Both the position numbers and the translations under genes were made by a program. DNA of 64,000 bases, from positions 1 through 64,000 of the forward strand of contig JAIOQZ010000035.1 of assembly GCA_021108395.1 (NCBI GenBank), written 5' to 3'. Source of the stretch: Candidatus Cloacimonadota bacterium (lineage in GTDB: Bacteria; Cloacimonadota; Cloacimonadia; Cloacimonadales; JAIOQZ01). Every line of letters starts with the position of its first letter. Positions within the stretch are counted from its first letter, which is position 1. The notes below the pieces were generated by a model. That model saw nothing but the letters and a program-made list of their open reading frames with translations. It ran no database searches and had not been told where the DNA came from. This document shows positions 52,920 to 60,966 of this stretch, in pieces.

Positions 52920-53366
52920 TCAGACAGCCTTGGCTGAGGCTGCGTCGCTTAACAGGCGGTGCTTTATCTCGTAGTCTGGATTGTCGAGAACGAGCTGACG
53001 CGCTATGTTGTTGGCGGTGTTGATGAGCAGCGGGCCTTTGAGGTTCGCTGTCATCCTGGCCGGGTCGCGTGGGACTGTCACGATGACGAGCTGCACCACA
53101 GTGGACGGGTCTTCGACCTTCAGTTCGAGCAGATCGCTCTCGAAGACGCGGATTTCGTAGTCAGGCTTGAAGATAAGCGGATCGGTGACCACAAAGGCAA
53201 GTTCCGGTTCATCCACGCTCTGTAGCCATTTGAGCGGCGACTTCTTGCTCGGATCGAGCAGCACGAAGTCCTTGCTTTTGGCAAAGCCAAGCAGGCCACT
53301 TGGAAAGTGAATGGTCGATTTCGGATCGATGTCAATCTCTCCAAAACGTTTTGTCTTGATGTTCAT
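52920..53366 (-). CDS. fliW: Flagellar assembly factor FliW
   Basis: A 148-residue cytoplasmic protein. In bacteria studied it binds flagellin and, when free, sequesters CsrA, linking flagellin output to translation control. Motifs match the family: MNIKTKRFGEIDID, IHFPSGLLGFAKSKDFVLLD, FKWLQSVD-like LKWLQSVDEPELAFVVTDP, LVIVTVPRDPARMTANLKGPLLINTANNIARQLVL. It is the last gene of the flagellar operon, after flgL. Its partner csrA is in the same operon, on the other side of flgL. Confidence 0.95.
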   Translation of the reverse strand: MNIKTKRFGEIDIDPKSTIHFPSGLLGFAKSKDFVLLDPSKKSPLKWLQSVDEPELAFVVTDPLIFKPDYEIRVFESDLLELKVEDPSTVVQLVIVTVPRDPARMTANLKGPLLINTANNIARQLVLDNPDYEIKHRLLSDAASAKAV

Positions 53367-53381: not shown

Positions 53382-54554
53382 TCAGATGTAGTTTAACAGT
53401 GATTGCATGAAAATCTTGCTGAGGGCGGAAGTTGATGACTGCAACGCCGCCTCCTGCGCGGCCAGCGCGGTGATTGTTTCAATCAGATCGGGCTTCTCGA
53501 TGCCCTGAATGCTGGCCAGAAGGTTCTCGTTCATTGTCACGAGGCTGTTTTTGGCAACCTCGACCTTGTTCAGGCGAATACCCGCTTTCACGGTGCCCAC
53601 CTGCATGTCGTTCTGTAGCTGCTTCAGTTCCTCGAGCGCCTCCGAAATCTCGAAGGTGTTGCTGTCCTCGAGTCCCAGACGCAGCTTTTGCAGTTTTGCA
53701 AAGAAACCGGTGTCGTCCAACACTTCCTGTCCTGTGACGTTGGTGGCCAGGCGCGAGCTGCGCATGGCGTTGAACTCGATAACCCCGTTGTCGCCGTTGT
53801 AACGGCCTTCGACCACATCGATGCGGAATTGATCGCCCTCGGCGAACGTGCCGTCGGTGAGTCCCAGCCGCACCCCCAGGTCCTGTCCGTTGACATCGTC
53901 GAAGACATCGATATTGCCGGTAAGTGTGTGTGTATTGCCCCAGGTTTCGCCGCCATCCTCCGATACCTGATACTGAGCAACCCCCAAATCGCCGGCGGAA
54001 ACCACGCGAACCAGGTAGCTCATTTTCTCGTCGCCGGTGAAGTCGCCGGACGAGGTGGCGTCGCCGTCGTAGGTGTTCAGGATTTGGTTGTAGGCCGGCA
54101 TAATCAAGCCGACGTCGCCAAAGGCCTGTGTCGAGGTTCTGTGCCCGGAGAAGATATAGCGGTCTCTCACCTGGGTGTTGGCCACTTCCAGCGCCTGGTC
54201 GATAAGCTCCTGCACCTGTTGCGCCGCGATTGCGCGGGCGGTTTCGTCCGAGGTCTCGGTGGCGCCCATCTCTGCAATCTCGCGTGCCCTGGCCAGGATG
54301 TCGTTGAAGTCCTGCATGGCGGCGTCTGTCGCGTTCAGGAACTCCTCGGCCTCGGTGAGGTTGGCCAGATACTGCATGTTTGCAGCGAGCGTCTGCTTGA
54401 GCGAGGTGGAAGTGGCGATGCCACTCGGGTCGTCCGAAGGGCGCAGCAGCTTCTGCTCGTTAGAAAGCTCTTCCTGTATTCGACGATACCTCTCCAGGTT
54501 GGTCGTCACATTTCTCAACAGCGTGCGATACGCTGCCTGGGTCGTCACTCTCAC
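53382..54554 (-). CDS. flgL: Flagellar hook-filament junction protein FlgL
   Basis: A 390-residue flagellin-like protein joining hook and filament. The N-terminal helices (TQAAYRTLLRNVTTNLERYRRIQEELSNEQKLLRPSDDPSGIATSTSLK) and the C-terminal helices (QEAALQSSTSALSKIFMQSLLNYI) are typical, with a variable beta-region between (about 140-290). The start is a GTG six bases after GGGAGG, within the last codons of csrA; the two genes are separated by a single base. Its ribosome-binding site contains GGA motifs that CsrA could bind, which is only a suggestion. Confidence 0.94.
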   Translation of the reverse strand: MRVTTQAAYRTLLRNVTTNLERYRRIQEELSNEQKLLRPSDDPSGIATSTSLKQTLAANMQYLANLTEAEEFLNATDAAMQDFNDILARAREIAEMGATETSDETARAIAAQQVQELIDQALEVANTQVRDRYIFSGHRTSTQAFGDVGLIMPAYNQILNTYDGDATSSGDFTGDEKMSYLVRVVSAGDLGVAQYQVSEDGGETWGNTHTLTGNIDVFDDVNGQDLGVRLGLTDGTFAEGDQFRIDVVEGRYNGDNGVIEFNAMRSSRLATNVTGQEVLDDTGFFAKLQKLRLGLEDSNTFEISEALEELKQLQNDMQVGTVKAGIRLNKVEVAKNSLVTMNENLLASIQGIEKPDLIETITALAAQEAALQSSTSALSKIFMQSLLNYI

Positions 54555-54555
54555 G

Positions 54556-54801
54556 TCAACCTCCCAGTTTGATGGAAAGCATCTCGTTCAACTGGTCGAG
54601 CGACTGGCTGTCGTCGGCCTTGCGCACAGCTTTCCGGTTCTCCCGCAAGATCTTTTCGTAGATCTCCTTGCGGTAAATGGGCATCTGTCTTGGGGCGTTG
54701 ATGCCAATCCGCGCCGAGTTCTTGTTTATCTCGGCCACTACGATCTCGATGTCGTCGCCGATGATGATCGACTCGCCCACTTTTCTTGTCAGAATAAGCA
54801 T
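54556..54801 (-). CDS. csrA: Carbon storage regulator CsrA
   Basis: An 81-residue RNA-binding protein that represses or stabilises mRNAs at GGA motifs. The sequence MLILTRKVGESIIIGDDIEIVV and IGINAPRQMPIYRKEIYEKI matches the family. Arg44 near the C-terminal helix is the usual RNA contact region (PIYRKEIYE). A 20-residue acidic/Ser tail extends beyond the standard 61 residues, as in flagellar-locus CsrA of several lineages. It is placed between flgK and flgL, not beside fliW. Confidence 0.96.
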   Translation of the reverse strand: MLILTRKVGESIIIGDDIEIVVAEINKNSARIGINAPRQMPIYRKEIYEKILRENRKAVRKADDSQSLDQLNEMLSIKLGG

Positions 54802-54868: not shown

Positions 54869-56239
54869 TTAGACGAGGCTGATAACGATACTCAGCGCTT
54901 TGTCGGCCGACGAGATAATCTTGGCGGCGGCGGCAAAGGACTGTTGAAACTGGATAAGCTTGGCGGCTTCCTCGTCCAGGGAGACACCTTTGACGCTTTC
55001 CCGGAAATTATCGATCTGAAAAGCGGTGGATTCGTGCAGGGTGGCCTTGTTCAGAGCGTTGCCGCTGTCGCGGCCAATGTTGCCAACCCAGGCGCCATAA
55101 TAGTCGCCAAAACTGTGCCCGTTTTCCATGGTTGCGGCTTTGCGCAAATCGGCGATGGACAACGCGATACGGTTGTCGCCCTCCTCGCCTTCCAGCGATG
55201 CGGCGATGCGAGATGGCTGATCGAGAATATCGGCGCTGACGCGAAAATCGGAAGCGCCGGTGATGTCGTCGGCAAAGAAGTTGCGTCCATCGCTTGGCGG
55301 ATCGCCCAGGTCGTAGCCCTGTCGATGTATCGCGTTGAGCGAAGCCGCGATTTGCACGGCCAGAGCGTCCAGGTCGGCGCGGTAGCCGTCGATCATGTCG
55401 TCGCGCAGGCGGGTGAGGCCGACGATCTTGCCCTGATGCAGGCCGCCGATGTCGTCGCGGGTGTCTTTCCACACCAGGCGCGAAGTGGCGTCACCGTCTT
55501 CTGCCTCACGGACGACGCGCAGGTTGCGGCACCAGTCGTTTTTCACCAGCTCGTCGGAGCCGAAATAGACGACGCGGGTACCGTCGGCGCGAACAGCGAG
55601 CCTGACGTTTCCATACTCGCTCAAATCGTCGAGCAGCAGGTCAAATTGATCTTCGAGGTCGTTGACCGGCTTGCCTACGGAATTCTGGATGCGCTGATTG
55701 AGCATGGCCAGGTCGGAGGCGATGCTGTTCACGCTGCCGGCGATTTGTTCAATCTCGTCGTTCACTTCCTTGCGCTTTTGCACCAAGCTGGCGTTGATGT
55801 CGTGAAAAGCCTCGCTGAGATTGTCGGCAGCGCCCAGCACATCCAGGCGATAGACGTTGTCGGCGGGGTTGTCGGCCAGGCTTTCCCATGCGTCCCAGAA
55901 CTTGTTGAGGGTGGTGGAAAGGCCGAATTCGGAAGGTTCGTTCAGCTCGACTTCGAGCTCGGCGAGTTTCTGGCTCATGCGGCTCCAGGAACCAAGCTGA
56001 GAGTTTTCATCGCGATAATTGATGTCGAGCTGCAGGTCGCGCATGCGTTCGATGCGAACCATTTCCACGCCCCCGCCAAACGAGCCGAAGCTGTCGCTAA
56101 TCGGATCGGCGTTGGTTTGCACCACACGCTGCCGACTGTAGCCGAGCGTGTTGACGTTGGCGATGTTCTGGCCGACTGTCTGTAGTTGGCGCTCGTTTGC
56201 GTGCAACGCGCTTTTGCCGATGTACAGTAGCTCAAACAT
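54869..56239 (-). CDS. flgK: Flagellar hook-associated protein FlgK
   Basis: A 456-residue hook-filament junction protein, first after the hook cap. The N-terminus carries LYIGKSALHANERQLQTVGQNIANVNTLGYSRQRVVQTN, the rod/hook family signature, and the C-terminus FRESVKGVSLDEEAAKLIQFQQSFAAAAKIISSADKALSIVISLV mirrors it. The central part is predominantly helix and strand (about 90-410). The domain order matches a short FlgK. It precedes csrA by 67 bases. Confidence 0.95.
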   Translation of the reverse strand: MFELLYIGKSALHANERQLQTVGQNIANVNTLGYSRQRVVQTNADPISDSFGSFGGGVEMVRIERMRDLQLDINYRDENSQLGSWSRMSQKLAELEVELNEPSEFGLSTTLNKFWDAWESLADNPADNVYRLDVLGAADNLSEAFHDINASLVQKRKEVNDEIEQIAGSVNSIASDLAMLNQRIQNSVGKPVNDLEDQFDLLLDDLSEYGNVRLAVRADGTRVVYFGSDELVKNDWCRNLRVVREAEDGDATSRLVWKDTRDDIGGLHQGKIVGLTRLRDDMIDGYRADLDALAVQIAASLNAIHRQGYDLGDPPSDGRNFFADDITGASDFRVSADILDQPSRIAASLEGEEGDNRIALSIADLRKAATMENGHSFGDYYGAWVGNIGRDSGNALNKATLHESTAFQIDNFRESVKGVSLDEEAAKLIQFQQSFAAAAKIISSADKALSIVISLV

Positions 56240-56257: not shown

Positions 56258-56758
56258 TCAGATCCGCTTATTGAGCAGAATCGAGCTGCGTTTCTGGTGA
56301 ATCATCCCGACGCGGCTGTAAACCCGGTCGTGGTCGATGATGTCGGCGATCATTTCGAGATTGTCGCCCACAAGTTCGAGCCCGGTACGGATGAGTTCTT
56401 TGTTCTCCGACGACAGTTTGTCGATGGTTTTGAGCGTGTTGGCGAACACCTTGAAGAACACCTGCGCCCGTTCCTGTTCCTCTTCTTCCTCGAACAGCTC
56501 GCTGATGTTTTTCAGCGAGTGGGACTGTGTTGTGGCGTCGCACATCACCAACAACGTCTCCATAAGGTCGTTGCGGGTGTTGGTGGCCTTGTGTGCCTGG
56601 CTGATAAGAATCACCGCCTGCTGGCTTGTCTCCTGGAAATAGGTGATGTCCCATTTCATCAGCGCATGCTTTTGTTGGGAGAGAACGAGCGACACTTCCT
56701 GATAGGCCGCTATCTCCTCTTCCCAGGCATCGAAGAAATCTTTTCTGAGCGCATCCAT
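56258..56758 (-). CDS. flgN: FlgN-like flagellar export chaperone
   Basis: A 166-residue all-helical protein with a charged, Glu-rich body (FEEEEEQERAQVFFKV) and a C-terminal segment (RVYSRVGMIHQKRSSILLNKRI) like FlgN. FlgN keeps FlgK and FlgL soluble and guides them to the export gate. Sequence conservation in this family is low, so the call depends on size, helix pattern and position directly upstream of flgK. Confidence 0.7.
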   Translation of the reverse strand: MDALRKDFFDAWEEEIAAYQEVSLVLSQQKHALMKWDITYFQETSQQAVILISQAHKATNTRNDLMETLLVMCDATTQSHSLKNISELFEEEEEQERAQVFFKVFANTLKTIDKLSSENKELIRTGLELVGDNLEMIADIIDHDRVYSRVGMIHQKRSSILLNKRI

Positions 56759-56775: not shown

Positions 56776-57618
56776 TTATTGAAAGCCTTCGTAATAATCT
56801 TGTACTCGCCGCACATAGTGCTGCGTTTCCTCGAACGGCGGTATGCCGCCATAGCGGTCAACGTTGCCGGGGCCGGCGTTATAGGCGGCCAGGGCAAGCT
56901 CGATGTCGCCGTCATAGCGATCGAGCATCAGTCGCAGGTAGCGGGCGCCACCCTGAATGTTCTGGCGCGGGTCAAAGCTGTCCGTCACGCCCAGTCCTGC
57001 GGCTGTGCCGTCCATGAGCTGCATCAGCCCTTTGGCTCCGGCGTGAGATTCCACCTGCGGATTGCCATAGCTCTCCTGGGCAATAACCGCCTTGATGAGC
57101 CGTGGGTCGAGGCCATGCTGATGGGCGGCTTCGAGAATGAGCGGCTCAAACTGCTGCAACCGAGCGGCAAGCGTTTTGCCCACAGGCTGCGGCTCGCTGG
57201 GTGCAGGCACAGGCCGTCTCACGACCTGGATAATCTGCGAAATGTCTGCACGGCTGAGGCCGCGCACAGGTAATTCATCGTTGTCTTCGGTATGCTGCTC
57301 GAGTTGTTCCATTATCTGCTTGGAAAGCCCCAGGTCGCCGCGACGAGCCATCGTCATCGAAATCTCGCCGAGAAACATCTCGTTATAGAAGTCGCCGCCG
57401 GGCATATCGCCCAGAAATCCGTCGCCTTCCAGAGTGTCGGTCATGGCGCTCAACATCTGCCGTATGAGCATAGCCTCGAACTGATGGCTCACATCCTGGG
57501 CACGCTCGGCGTCGTATGCCCTGGACTGGTCGAGCCCGCGCACCTGGTCGGTCAGCTTGCGCATCTCGTCCTGGCGGCGTTCGAGCGCGATGTCACCTGT
57601 TGTCGGCAGTTGAATCAT
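56776..57618 (-). CDS. flgJ: FlgJ-type rod-binding protein fused to a lytic transglycosylase
   Basis: A 280-residue two-domain protein. The FlgJ N-terminal rod-binding domain covers about 40-108 (SHQFEAMLIRQMLSAMTDT...FLGEISMTMARRGDLGLSKQIMEQL). After a Pro-rich linker, residues about 155-275 form a GH23/SLT lytic transglycosylase, with Glu182 in IKAVIAQESYGNPQ, GAKGLMQLMDGTA and LALAAYNAGPGNVDRYGGIPPF. Enterobacterial FlgJ carries a glucosaminidase domain instead. The enzyme would open peptidoglycan for the growing rod. Overlap with neighbours is small: it begins 10 bases after the flgI stop codon. Confidence 0.92.
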   Translation of the reverse strand: MIQLPTTGDIALERRQDEMRKLTDQVRGLDQSRAYDAERAQDVSHQFEAMLIRQMLSAMTDTLEGDGFLGDMPGGDFYNEMFLGEISMTMARRGDLGLSKQIMEQLEQHTEDNDELPVRGLSRADISQIIQVVRRPVPAPSEPQPVGKTLAARLQQFEPLILEAAHQHGLDPRLIKAVIAQESYGNPQVESHAGAKGLMQLMDGTAAGLGVTDSFDPRQNIQGGARYLRLMLDRYDGDIELALAAYNAGPGNVDRYGGIPPFEETQHYVRRVQDYYEGFQ

Positions 57619-57628
57619 GGCTTATCCC

Positions 57629-58732
57629 CTACAGAATGACCAGCTCGGCCTGCAATGCACCGGCGGCCTTGAGCGACTGAAAAATGGCTATGAGGTCTCG
57701 CGGGGTGGTCTCGATGCGGTTGAGCGCACGAGCCAAATCCTGCACGGTGGCGGTTTCAATTACAGATACGCGGGCATCCTCGGGAATGACTTCGATGGAG
57801 GAGCCGGTCGTGGTTTGCACGATGCCGGCTGCGCCACCTGCGCCAACGACCCCCACGCCTGTGGTCTGTGTTTCCTGCGCCACTTTGATGGTGAGGTTGC
57901 CGTGCGCCACGGCCACCTGCGTAATTCTTACGTCGCCGCCGGCCACGATGGTGCCGGTACGCTCGTTGATAACCACTCGTGCCGCTTGCTCCGGCATCAC
58001 CTGTAGGTTCTCGATTTGAGAGATGAAACCGATGAGGTTGCGATTGTTCAGCACCGAGTCGGGCACCACCACCTGCACCGACATACCGTCTTCAGGGGCG
58101 GCGAGGCGCAAGTCGAAATACTCGTTGATGGCTGTGGCCACCCGCTGGACAGTGGTGAAATCGGGATTGCGCAGGTTCAGCATCAGCTCGCCGTTAAACA
58201 GCAACTGGCTGTACACCTCTTCGTGCACGGTTGCGCCGCCGGGAACACGCCCCACGAGGGCGTAATTGCGTCGTACACGGCTGCCACCGCTTTCGGTGTT
58301 GAACCCGCCGATCGAGACGGCGCCCTGCGCCATCGCCAGCAGGTTCTGCTCGACGTCCATCAGGGGCGACAGCAGCAACATGCCGCCTTCGAGGCTCTTG
58401 GCGTCGCCCAGCGAACTGACGGTTACATCGAACTGGCCGCCCACCTTGGCGAACGGCGGCAGTGTCGCGGTAATCATGACAGCCGCCACGTTGTTGGGGC
58501 GTATTTTGTTCATGGGCACCATGATGCCAAAGCGCTCCATCATGTTCTTGATCGACTGCACAGTCATCTGGGAAGACGAGCCGTCGCCCGTTCCATCCAA
58601 ACCGACCACGAGTCCATAACCGATGAGCGGACGCGCCTCGAGTCCGCTGAAGGTGGCAATGTCCTTCAAACGTACTTGCGCGTGCAGTCCGCAAAAAGCG
58701 ACCAACAGTAACAGCAAAACCAGTCTCTTCAT
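57629..58732 (-). CDS. flgI: Flagellar P-ring protein FlgI
   Basis: A 367-residue periplasmic protein with signal peptide MKRLVLLLLLVAFCGLHA. It forms the ring around the rod in the peptidoglycan layer of two-membrane bacteria. Family blocks are RLKDIATFSG...IGYGLVVGLDGTGDG, FGIMVPMNKIRPNNVAAVMITATLPPFAKVGGQFDVTVSSLGDAKSLEGGMLLLSPL, and the end MRVIETATVQDLARALN-like VSVIETATVQDLARALNRIETTPRDLIAIFQSLKAAGAL. ATG 58732 gives the proper signal peptide. First gene of the operon. Confidence 0.96.
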   Translation of the reverse strand: MKRLVLLLLLVAFCGLHAQVRLKDIATFSGLEARPLIGYGLVVGLDGTGDGSSSQMTVQSIKNMMERFGIMVPMNKIRPNNVAAVMITATLPPFAKVGGQFDVTVSSLGDAKSLEGGMLLLSPLMDVEQNLLAMAQGAVSIGGFNTESGGSRVRRNYALVGRVPGGATVHEEVYSQLLFNGELMLNLRNPDFTTVQRVATAINEYFDLRLAAPEDGMSVQVVVPDSVLNNRNLIGFISQIENLQVMPEQAARVVINERTGTIVAGGDVRITQVAVAHGNLTIKVAQETQTTGVGVVGAGGAAGIVQTTTGSSIEVIPEDARVSVIETATVQDLARALNRIETTPRDLIAIFQSLKAAGALQAELVIL

Positions 58733-58837
58733 CTCTTGCCTCTCTTGCCCGAACCAGATGGGCGATATGAGTCTCTCGCAAAGAACAGCGTGGCGCATAG
58801 CCAAAGCGGGCATACGCCGCCGCAGATGAAGTGAAAC

Positions 58838-58852
58838 GCAATGGGTGTGCCA
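58838..58852 (-). promoter_or_regulatory. Sigma-54 (-24/-12) promoter of the flagellar operon
   Basis: On the minus strand TGGCACA-CCCA-TTGC matches the sigma-54 consensus TGGCACG-N4-TTGC at every position except the seventh, with the exact spacing between the GG and GC doublets. Transcription would start near 58826, about 95 bases before flgI. The match predicts that a bacterial enhancer-binding protein and RpoN act here; neither gene is in the window. Confidence 0.65.
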
Positions 58853-58968
58853 GTCGCGCCTTTTGGATTATCTCGCTGCAATACTGCCAGTTACGTTATC
58901 CCAACGAAACAGGTTCTTGCTGAAATACCGGCCCAGATAACTCACCCGCAGGAAATATTTTCCGCAAA

Positions 58969-59190
58969 GATGGGGCGCTGCCCCCTTTGAAGGCTCACTT
59001 CGCTTCGCTACGCGACTAACCCCGCTCACTTTTTGTAAAAAGTGAGATCAAAAACTTTTGCGGAAACTTCGTTTCCTATGTACAGTAGTGAATTCTGTGA
59101 CACAAGGATGCGCTGGCATCCGCCAGAAGTTTGGCTTGTCGCGTAGCAAAGCGGAGTGAGCCTTTTATGGGGTAGGGGCGGATCCCCATC
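58969..59190. repeat. Interspersed inverted-repeat element, copy D (complete, about 222 bp)
   Basis: The ends are inverted: GATGGGGCGCTGCCCC on the left, and GATGGGGATCCGCCCC on the right when read on the minus strand. Both arms carry the extra module AAGGCTCACTTCGCTTCGCTAC on the left and AAGGCTCACTCCGCTTTGCTAC on the right, then CTCACTTTTTGTAAAAAGTGAG (left), GATCAAAAACTTTTGC, and GGAAACTTCGTTTCC (left) versus GGATGCCAGCGCATCC (right). Lies between divergent flgI and the glycosyltransferase gene, between their two promoters. Confidence 0.8.
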
Positions 59191-59207
59191 TCAAAAAAGG
59201 TTTAACG

Positions 59208-59236
59208 TTGACACCAATTCTGCCGACTGGTATTAG
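59208..59236 (+). promoter_or_regulatory. Sigma-70-like promoter for the glycosyltransferase operon
   Basis: TTGACA at 59208-59213, exactly 17 bases, TATTAG at 59231-59236, with start expected near 59243, just outside repeat copy D. The gene's GGGAGG site follows. Confidence 0.6.
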
Positions 59237-59265
59237 AGATGCAGTCCAGCGAACAGGGAGGTTCC

Positions 59266-60966
59266 ATGCATCGGTTGCGAATCGAGACCGCCAGGGATGG
59301 CTCGCCGGTTCCCATCATAGACGATACCAGCATCCACAGTTCCTATCATCCACGCGATGAGGGCGAGAAGCTGGCTCGTCGTTTTCTCGCCGAGCACACC
59401 GGCTGCGGGCATGTCGTCGTGTTCGGGCTGGCTTTTGGCTATCATGTGTTGCCGTTGCTCGACCAGGTCGAGCACGTCACGGTGTATGAGCCTCTTCCGC
59501 AGATGATCGAGGCCGCCCGCGCCCAATCTCACCTCACTCCCGTGTTCGAGCGCACCACCGTCACTGGCGAGCTGGAAGCGCTACCCGCCGGCGAAGAACA
59601 CGCCGTGCTGGCGCTACCCAGCTACCGCCGCCTGCTTCCGCAGGAATGGTCGGCCTTTCAACAGGCGCTCTCCGCGAGGGCGACCACCCCCGACATCGAT
59701 CTGAGCGGCCTGCGCGTGTTGATAGACTATCCCATCTACGGCGGCTCGCACACAACGGCGCGCTATGCACAGAACGCTCTGCGTCGGCTGGGCTGCCAAG
59801 TGCGCGGACTGGACAACGCCTACGCCGATGGCATGCTGCAACGCATCCTCGCCGTACCCGACGGGGAGCGCTCTTCGCAAATGTCGGGGCAGCTCACCGC
59901 GCTGCTTTCGCAGTTGCTGTGGGAGGAGTGCGTCTCCTTCCGTCCTCACCTCATCCTGTTTTTGGCGCAGGCGCCCGTTTCGCCCGAATTGCTAAAGACA
60001 CTGCGCGAGAAAACCGATGCGCTCACGGCGTTCTGGTTCGTCGAGGACTACCGCCGCTTCGCCTATTGGCGCAGCTACGCCGGGCTGTTCGACGGATTCT
60101 TCAGCATCCAGACAGGGGTCTTCGAGCGCGAACTGCTGACGCATGGCGAGAAGCATTACGCATATCTGCCAATGGCCGCCGATGAATCGGTGATGCGTCG
60201 GCTCGATCTCACCTCCGCCGATTCCACGCGCTTCGGCGCCGACATCGCTTTCATGGGAGCGGGATACCCCAACCGCCGCGCCCTCTTTGCTCGACTGGCA
60301 AGCTATGACCTGAAACTCTGGGGCACTGGCTGGGAAGGCGAGCCTGCCCTGACGCCGCTGGTGCAGAATGGCGGCGCTCGCGTCTCCCCCGAGGACACGG
60401 CGAAAATCTATAACGCCACCAAGATCAACATCAATCTGCACTCGAGCATGAACGCCGAGTTGTTCGAGCCGGACGGCGACTTCATCAACCCGCGCACCTT
60501 CGAGATAATGGCCTGCGGCGGGTTCCAGCTCGTTGACCGACGCCACTTGTTCGAGGGGGTGTTTGTCGAGGGCGAGGACTTCGTCTGCTTCGACTCGCTG
60601 CCCGACCTGCGCGACAAGATAGACTACTATCTCGCCCACCCCGAAGAACGCGAGCGCATCGCCCGCAACGGCCAGCGCAAGGCGCTCAACCACCACACCT
60701 ACACCCATCGGATGCAGTCCATGCTACAGCAGATGTTGCGCTGGCATCCCGACTGGGCGCACCGGCTGGGCGACGACGCCCGCAGGCGAGAGGCAGCCCT
60801 CGACGAGATTGGCGACCCAGACCTGTGCCGGTTCATAATGAGCAGGCCTGCCGCCGAGCGTGACGACATCGAGGCGCTGTCTGCCGCCGTGCGCGAACGA
60901 CAGGGTTCGCTGAAGAACTTCGAGGCCACGCTCATGGCGCTCGAAACCTTTTACCGGAACGAGTGA
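59266..60966 (+). CDS. CgeB/DUF3880-type glycosyltransferase
   Basis: A 566-residue cytoplasmic protein. Residues about 40-140 have a Rossmann-like start (CGHVVVFGLAFGYHVLPLLDQVEHVTVYEP) of the kind found in flagellin-glycosylation accessory proteins. The rest is a GT-B-like glycosyltransferase of the CgeB/Glyco_trans_1_2 type, with DFIAFMGAGYPNRRALFARL-like ADIAFMGAGYPNRR, KIYNATKININLHSSM, NPRTFEIMACGGFQLVDRR and EREQIARNGQRKAL-like HPEERERIARNGQRKAL. ATG 59266 is chosen for GGGAGG. Donor and acceptor sugars are unknown. Confidence 0.82.
   Translation: MHRLRIETARDGSPVPIIDDTSIHSSYHPRDEGEKLARRFLAEHTGCGHVVVFGLAFGYHVLPLLDQVEHVTVYEPLPQMIEAARAQSHLTPVFERTTVTGELEALPAGEEHAVLALPSYRRLLPQEWSAFQQALSARATTPDIDLSGLRVLIDYPIYGGSHTTARYAQNALRRLGCQVRGLDNAYADGMLQRILAVPDGERSSQMSGQLTALLSQLLWEECVSFRPHLILFLAQAPVSPELLKTLREKTDALTAFWFVEDYRRFAYWRSYAGLFDGFFSIQTGVFERELLTHGEKHYAYLPMAADESVMRRLDLTSADSTRFGADIAFMGAGYPNRRALFARLASYDLKLWGTGWEGEPALTPLVQNGGARVSPEDTAKIYNATKININLHSSMNAELFEPDGDFINPRTFEIMACGGFQLVDRRHLFEGVFVEGEDFVCFDSLPDLRDKIDYYLAHPEERERIARNGQRKALNHHTYTHRMQSMLQQMLRWHPDWAHRLGDDARRREAALDEIGDPDLCRFIMSRPAAERDDIEALSAAVRERQGSLKNFEATLMALETFYRNE

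Follow-up and report, generated by a model that had tools for sequence, protein, structure and literature searches.

The flgI operon and a predicted sigma-54 promoter

In the window, by which we mean the whole 64-kb stretch of DNA that was analyzed, the genes flgI-flgJ-flgN-flgK-csrA-flgL-fliW follow one another on the minus strand with intergenic gaps of 1-67 bp. Pfam confirmed all seven identities, which had been proposed in a first-pass annotation of this DNA. Upstream of flgI lie a predicted promoter, its predicted start, and a putative box for an enhancer-binding protein (EBP):

52920-53366, minus strand: fliW, CsrA antagonist (PF02623)
53382-54554, minus strand: flgL, hook-associated protein 3 (PF00669 and position after csrA)
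54556-54801, minus strand: csrA (PF02599)
54869-56239, minus strand: flgK, hook-associated protein 1 (PF22638, PF00460, PF06429)
56258-56758, minus strand: flgN chaperone (PF05130)
56776-57618, minus strand: flgJ, rod-binding and SLT transglycosylase domains (PF10135, PF01464)
57629-58732, minus strand: flgI, P-ring protein, first gene of the operon (PF02119, 392 bits)
58826, minus strand: predicted transcription start, 12 nt downstream of the -12 C (from sigma-54 promoter geometry)
58838-58852, minus strand: predicted sigma-54 -24/-12 promoter, TGGCACACCCATTGC (from the sequence; kept before flgI in 8/8 flagellate relatives)
58951-58963, read on the minus strand: putative enhancer (EBP box), palindrome GGAAAATATTTCC, the sole match to GGAAAN3TTTCC with at most one mismatch in the window

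The gene order was identical in every readable relative, two csrA exceptions aside: csrA was not seen in the flgI operon of G023, nor in the second system of G016. The stretch that separates flgI from the divergent glycosyltransferase gene also contains two inverted copies of an interspersed, REP/MITE-like repeat of the GTAGCGAAGCGGAGTGAGCC..GGGGCAGCGCCCC type (58990-59011, minus strand; 59143-59164, plus strand), with more copies in other stretches of the same genome. This repeat was rejected as the source of the box at flgI, since the box is absent from its other copies.

The promoter letters, TGGCACACCCATTGC, are a direct reading of the minus strand from 58852 to 58838, in a context that reads ...gcgcgacTGGCACACCCATTGCgtttcac.... 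The sequence departs from the consensus TGGCACGN4TTGC only at position 7, where A replaces G, and the coordinates and the match to 10 of the 11 consensus positions given in the first-pass annotation proved exact. The perfect -24/-12 spacing claimed there was likewise borne out: GG and GC are separated by 10 bases (GG-N10-GC, within TGGCAC..TTGC), a spacing that is obligatory in sigma-54 promoters. The base after TTGC, usually A or T, is a G here, which puts the flgI site among the weaker sigma-54 sites. From the predicted start at ~58826 to the flgI ATG at 58732, the leader would span ~94 nt, in agreement with the distance of about 95 bases noted before.

Although 58838-58852 is the sole match to TGGCACGN4TTGC with at most one mismatch in the window, matches with at most two mismatches numbered 30, against 30.8 expected by chance, and genome-wide we counted 66 matches with at most one mismatch versus 55 for a reversed-pattern control. 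Because these counts are near chance or control, the motif is weak by its letters alone, a point that the first-pass annotation leaves out. The tighter pattern TGGCAYN5TTGC was enriched in the own genome (26 versus 9; binomial p = 0.006), and 17 of the 26 matches were intergenic and within ~220 nt of a gene start. Five stood directly before flagellar genes, namely, flgI, flgF, flgB, fliJ, and fliD (the last identified as FliD by Pfam), and a search for the same motif before other flagellar operons, as the first-pass annotation had advised, was thereby successful at four further places. Elsewhere in the genome, a sigma-54 site, TGGCACAGGGGTTGCA, is located at L065:11603-11618 (G000:C1:275602), ahead of tandem 130-aa genes with a hydrophobic N-terminus and with an EBP and a kinase nearby; as a guess, this site could serve pilin-like control.

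Conservation of the site in flagellate relatives

A search for FlgI across 59 genomes of the order returned the own genome and eight others. We scored the stretches around flgI, flgF/flgG, and flgB from these flagellate relatives with a sigma-54 matrix that was built from general knowledge, with no database source; each of the eight proved to have a sigma-54 site ahead of flgI. Every copy of flgI, flgF, and flgB with its upstream DNA covered carried a GG-N10-GC site, a count that includes flgF of G009 and G020 and flgB of G023, where the starts were called too far upstream, and the second flgI of G016, with its site 287 nt upstream. The sites of G011 were the weakest among the relatives. In most fragments, the top-scoring sigma-54 site of the whole stretch was the one before flgI, flgF, or flgB, and a score of 15 was reached by only 1.4% of 490 background genes. 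The 30 collected sites yielded the consensus TGGCACA-N4-TTGC-W (W = A/T). In G016 (L082, L083), two flgI operons are present, with a separate sigma-54 site for each.

These data bear on the possibility that the TGGCAC..TTGC match arose by chance and that the operon is under another sigma factor (sigma-70 or sigma-28/FliA). The near-control number of motifs with at most one mismatch would fit such a scenario, as would the presence of FliA, which is encoded in the own genome. However, the site is kept at orthologous places in the eight relatives despite diverged flanks, and no sigma-70-like promoter was found within 58700-59300. Given this position and conservation, a chance origin of the site is untenable, and control by another sigma factor strikes us as exceedingly improbable. 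Because the site is conserved before the same genes in relatives, we regard the sigma-54 reading as settled: On sequence evidence, 58838-58852 is almost certainly the sigma-54 (RpoN) -24/-12 promoter of the flgI-flgJ-flgN-flgK-csrA-flgL-fliW operon, and the interpretation offered in the first-pass annotation is supported. With the site before the same genes in every flagellate relative checked, the regulation would therefore be of a known kind.

A palindromic box upstream of the promoters

When short palindromes were counted without bias across the 30 promoters of the order, a single outlier emerged: GGAAA-N3-TTTCC, which occurred in 13 of the 30, whereas the commonest palindrome in ten shuffled promoter sets reached 2-4. 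For the pattern GGAAAnnnTTTCC, exact copies in 13/30 promoters compared with 0.01 in shuffles, and copies with at most one mismatch in 17/30 compared with 0.3. The box centre lies 68-117 bases upstream of TGGC in nearly all cases; at flgI, the box is 98 bp upstream of the -24 element, with its centre at about -131 from the predicted start; the first-pass annotation had passed over it. The own genome has exact boxes at flgF and fliD and two near-copies, 19 bp apart, at flgB, and the commonest spacing of a second box overall is 18-23 bp from the first. Several promoters lack a clear palindrome (G000 fliJ, G009 flgF, G011 flgB). The strongest helical phasing of the boxes was at a period near 11.5-12 bp (p ~0.02, uncorrected for the several periods tried), and we make no claim of it.

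Genome-wide counts of GGAAAN3TTTCC did not separate flagellates from non-flagellates. Because these counts are uninformative, the enhancer claim draws solely on position. The upstream activator site of the sigma-54 promoter would be the predicted box at 58951-58963, which is conserved in position. In a separate test on 20 promoters of other phyla, mostly of flgF and with sigma-54-like sites, the box was present in 6/20 when up to one mismatch was allowed (shuffles 0.04) and in 13/20 when up to two were allowed (shuffles 0.65). The ftr enhancer of FlbD, GGCA-N5-TGCC, has no copy near flgI, where the box is of the GGAAAN3TTTCC kind. A gene for a 145-aa protein with no Pfam match (L260:9219-9234; G000:C35:23219) combines a strong sigma-54 site with a perfect GGAAAN3TTTCC at -80, and is possibly an extra member of the flagellar regulon.

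RpoN and a candidate flagellar activator

The first-pass annotation had suggested looking in the genome for rpoN and for a flagellar EBP, and rpoN and a candidate EBP were both found. A single rpoN is located at C8:17672, and its product contains all three sigma-54 domains, i.e., activator-interacting (AID), core-binding (CBD), and DNA-binding (DBD), along with an RpoN-box-like stretch, SRRVIAKYRR. RpoN was present in 57 of the 59 genomes of the order; since it is nearly universal and flagella are not so widespread, its presence alone says little.

Nine EBPs are encoded in the own genome. The candidate flagellar one (L061:5274-6668, G000:C26; hereafter C26 EBP) combines a receiver (PF00072), a Sigma54_activat domain (PF00158), and a Fis-type HTH (PF02954), and its gene is directly preceded by that of a soluble PAS histidine kinase. 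Upstream of the pair lie an HDOD gene, cheY, a weak CheZ match, and two response regulators, and the kinase-EBP-cheY neighborhood is conserved in relatives. The cluster as a whole (L061:148-5299, G000:C26) reads HDOD-cheY-CheZ-like-response regulators-small protein-kinase-EBP and is conserved, its small protein measuring 85-100 aa with no Pfam match.

Strong orthologues of the C26 kinase (at least 348 bits, with all remaining matches at most 149 bits; 53-62% identity) occurred in 7 of 8 flgI-positive relatives versus 1 of 50 flgI-negative ones (Fisher p = 2e-7), and the EBP and its adjacent kinase are thus flagellum-associated. The one flgI-positive relative that lacks the kinase has an assembly that is 64% complete, and the one flgI-negative relative that has it, G003, is an incomplete assembly in which FliA is also present.

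Orthologues of the C26 EBP are 60-65% identical and retain the receiver aspartate and lysine (an intact phospho-site), the GAFTGA loop, and an invariant recognition helix, RTLRNKL. Against the FlbD model, the C26 EBP scored 370 bits, the best of the seven EBPs scanned (others at most 302), with a cut-off of 750 bits, and against the FlgR model it scored 301 bits, also with a cut-off of 750; FlrC and FleR models were not among the families listed for this comparison. Because no EBP model reached its NCBIfam cut-off, we do not formally assign the names FlrC or FlbD. Its relatives of solved structure are NtrC-type EBPs, ZraR, LuxO, and FlrC. We consider it probable, judging from sequence and co-occurrence, that the C26 EBP is the activator of the flgI-operon promoter, and, with slightly less assurance, likely that the palindrome GGAAAnnnTTTCC is its binding site.

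Alternatively, the sigma-54 promoter may be real but a different regulator may bind the palindrome, or one or more others of the nine EBPs may do the activating. The sheer number of EBPs leaves room for this, palindrome copies are found also in genomes without flagella, and an exact palindrome stands at -80 from a sigma-54 site with no evident flagellar gene (G000:C35, L211/L260). Yet the C26 kinase/EBP pair tracks flagella (the one pair for which co-occurrence was examined), 11 of 12 other sigma-54-like intergenic sites of the own genome have no palindrome, and the palindrome shares the half-site geometry of the FlbD and DVU1063 boxes (PMC3333781), and of the EBPs scanned the C26 EBP scores best to FlbD. 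We therefore judge another regulator or EBP to be unlikely and favor the C26 EBP as the protein that would bind the box.

Comparison with known systems

The box TTGCA-N3-TGCAA of LuxO is bound by an NtrC-type EBP. The box described here resembles it as a 5-3-5 palindrome with a candidate EBP of the NtrC type, whereas letters and targets differ. In the FlrB-FlrC and FleS-FleR systems of Vibrio and Pseudomonas, as here, a soluble PAS kinase stands beside an NtrC-type EBP, basal-body and hook genes are under sigma-54 control, and FliA is also present; the FlrC structure 4qhs is among the closest solved EBPs to the C26 EBP. In contrast to these systems, the kinase and EBP here lie in a chemotaxis-like neighborhood (cheY, weak CheZ match). 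The FlgS-FlgR system of Campylobacter and Helicobacter is similar in that one two-component pair drives sigma-54 flagellar genes, as is predicted here, but the FlgR model scores below FlbD, and the EBP here keeps a conserved HTH and a likewise conserved upstream box.

Also close are FlbD of Caulobacter crescentus (ftr) and DVU1063 of Desulfovibrio vulgaris, with the enhancer GGCA-N5-TGCC and reportedly atypical receivers (PMC3333781). Sigma-54 flagellar promoters, a palindromic box with GGxA-N5-TxCC half-sites, and an EBP of the receiver-AAA+-Fis-HTH type are common to those systems and to the one described here. The box differs by an A for C (GGAA-N5-TTCC here), the phosphorylation site of the EBP is intact here and a kinase is encoded next to it, where FlbD and DVU1063 reportedly have atypical receivers, and the phylum is another.

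Evolution and novelty

An FlgI-alignment search provided 80 named loci, all outside this order. Among 71 outgroup loci, 59 had flgI immediately after flgH, and only 8 of 71 had a sigma-54 site before flgI, while strong sigma-54 sites occurred at 16 of 36 outgroup flgF promoters versus 1.3% of background genes. Within this order, flgI is the leading gene of a separate operon and has a sigma-54 site to itself. Most simply, an ancestral sigma-54 flgF-flgG-flgA-flgH-flgI operon would have been divided in this lineage, with a copy of the promoter gained by its second half. A wider reading, to which we give a little less than even credence, is that GGAAAnnnTTTCC serves as enhancer in an ancient flagellar two-component regulon common to several phyla (this order, Ignavibacteria, Calditrichota, KSB1, and Thermodesulfobacteriales) and is a sister of the FlbD box; sigma-54 control of rod, ring, and hook with one conserved cis-code would then predate the split of FCB from its neighbors, flgI having left flgFGAH with its own promoter copy. 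Its occurrence in several phyla is relevant to the question of an ancestral sigma-54 flagellar hierarchy versus repeated acquisition.

Sigma-54 control of flagellar genes has long been known and was surveyed across phyla (PMC3162934, PMC12316311), and a 2026 paper that reports flagellar genes to be enriched in digester Cloacimonadota is silent on their regulation (PMC13082233). In the library searched, we found no work that deals with sigma-54 and flagella in Cloacimonadota, and among the matches listed for GGAAA/TTTCC with sigma-54 and flagella, none indicated such a box in its title or abstract, a description elsewhere being possible. What appears new is a sigma-54 flagellar promoter in a lineage for which we found no description, together with the letters of the enhancer and its reach across phyla; a mode of control well described in Proteobacteria and Campylobacterota is thus extended to a little-studied order, probably of Cloacimonadota.

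Proposed mechanism

The predicted parts list is complete, running from promoter and enhancer through activator and kinase to the target operons. At any sigma-54 promoter, opening requires that an AAA+ enhancer-binding protein first remodel the polymerase. Here, the PAS-histidine kinase encoded just before the EBP would phosphorylate the C26 EBP on a signal; the C26 EBP would bind GGAAAnnnTTTCC as dimers, ~100 bp upstream of the promoter and ~130 from the start, and may then loop to the closed sigma-54 complex and open the promoter. The same pair would presumably also activate flgFGAH, flgB..fliF..fliI, and fliD-fliS-flgM, a target class of rod, P/L-ring, hook-junction, and cap genes that we infer to be expressed mid-to-late. 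In the own genome, FlgM stays below the Pfam cut-off; its gene lies downstream of fliD, after a FliS-like gene. The genes flhB-flhA-flhF-flhG-fliA have a weak sigma-54 site at most and no box, and would therefore fit an earlier class, before the EBP step.

A further alternative is that the promoter is active but secondary, with the operon controlled mainly after transcription via CsrA/FliW. That csrA and fliW sit inside the operon speaks for it, as do CAAGGA-type motifs in flagellin leaders; against it, a CsrA-type site in the flgI leader is not demonstrated, and promoter and putative enhancer are conserved in all relatives. We hold such a secondary role to be very unlikely.

Four flagellin genes lie in tandem at L052:3827-8186 (G000:C21), with no sigma-28 consensus before them by a strict pattern. 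Near the start codon, their leaders contain the CAAGGA-type motifs, and these would be consistent with CsrA control via csrA and fliW of the flgI operon.
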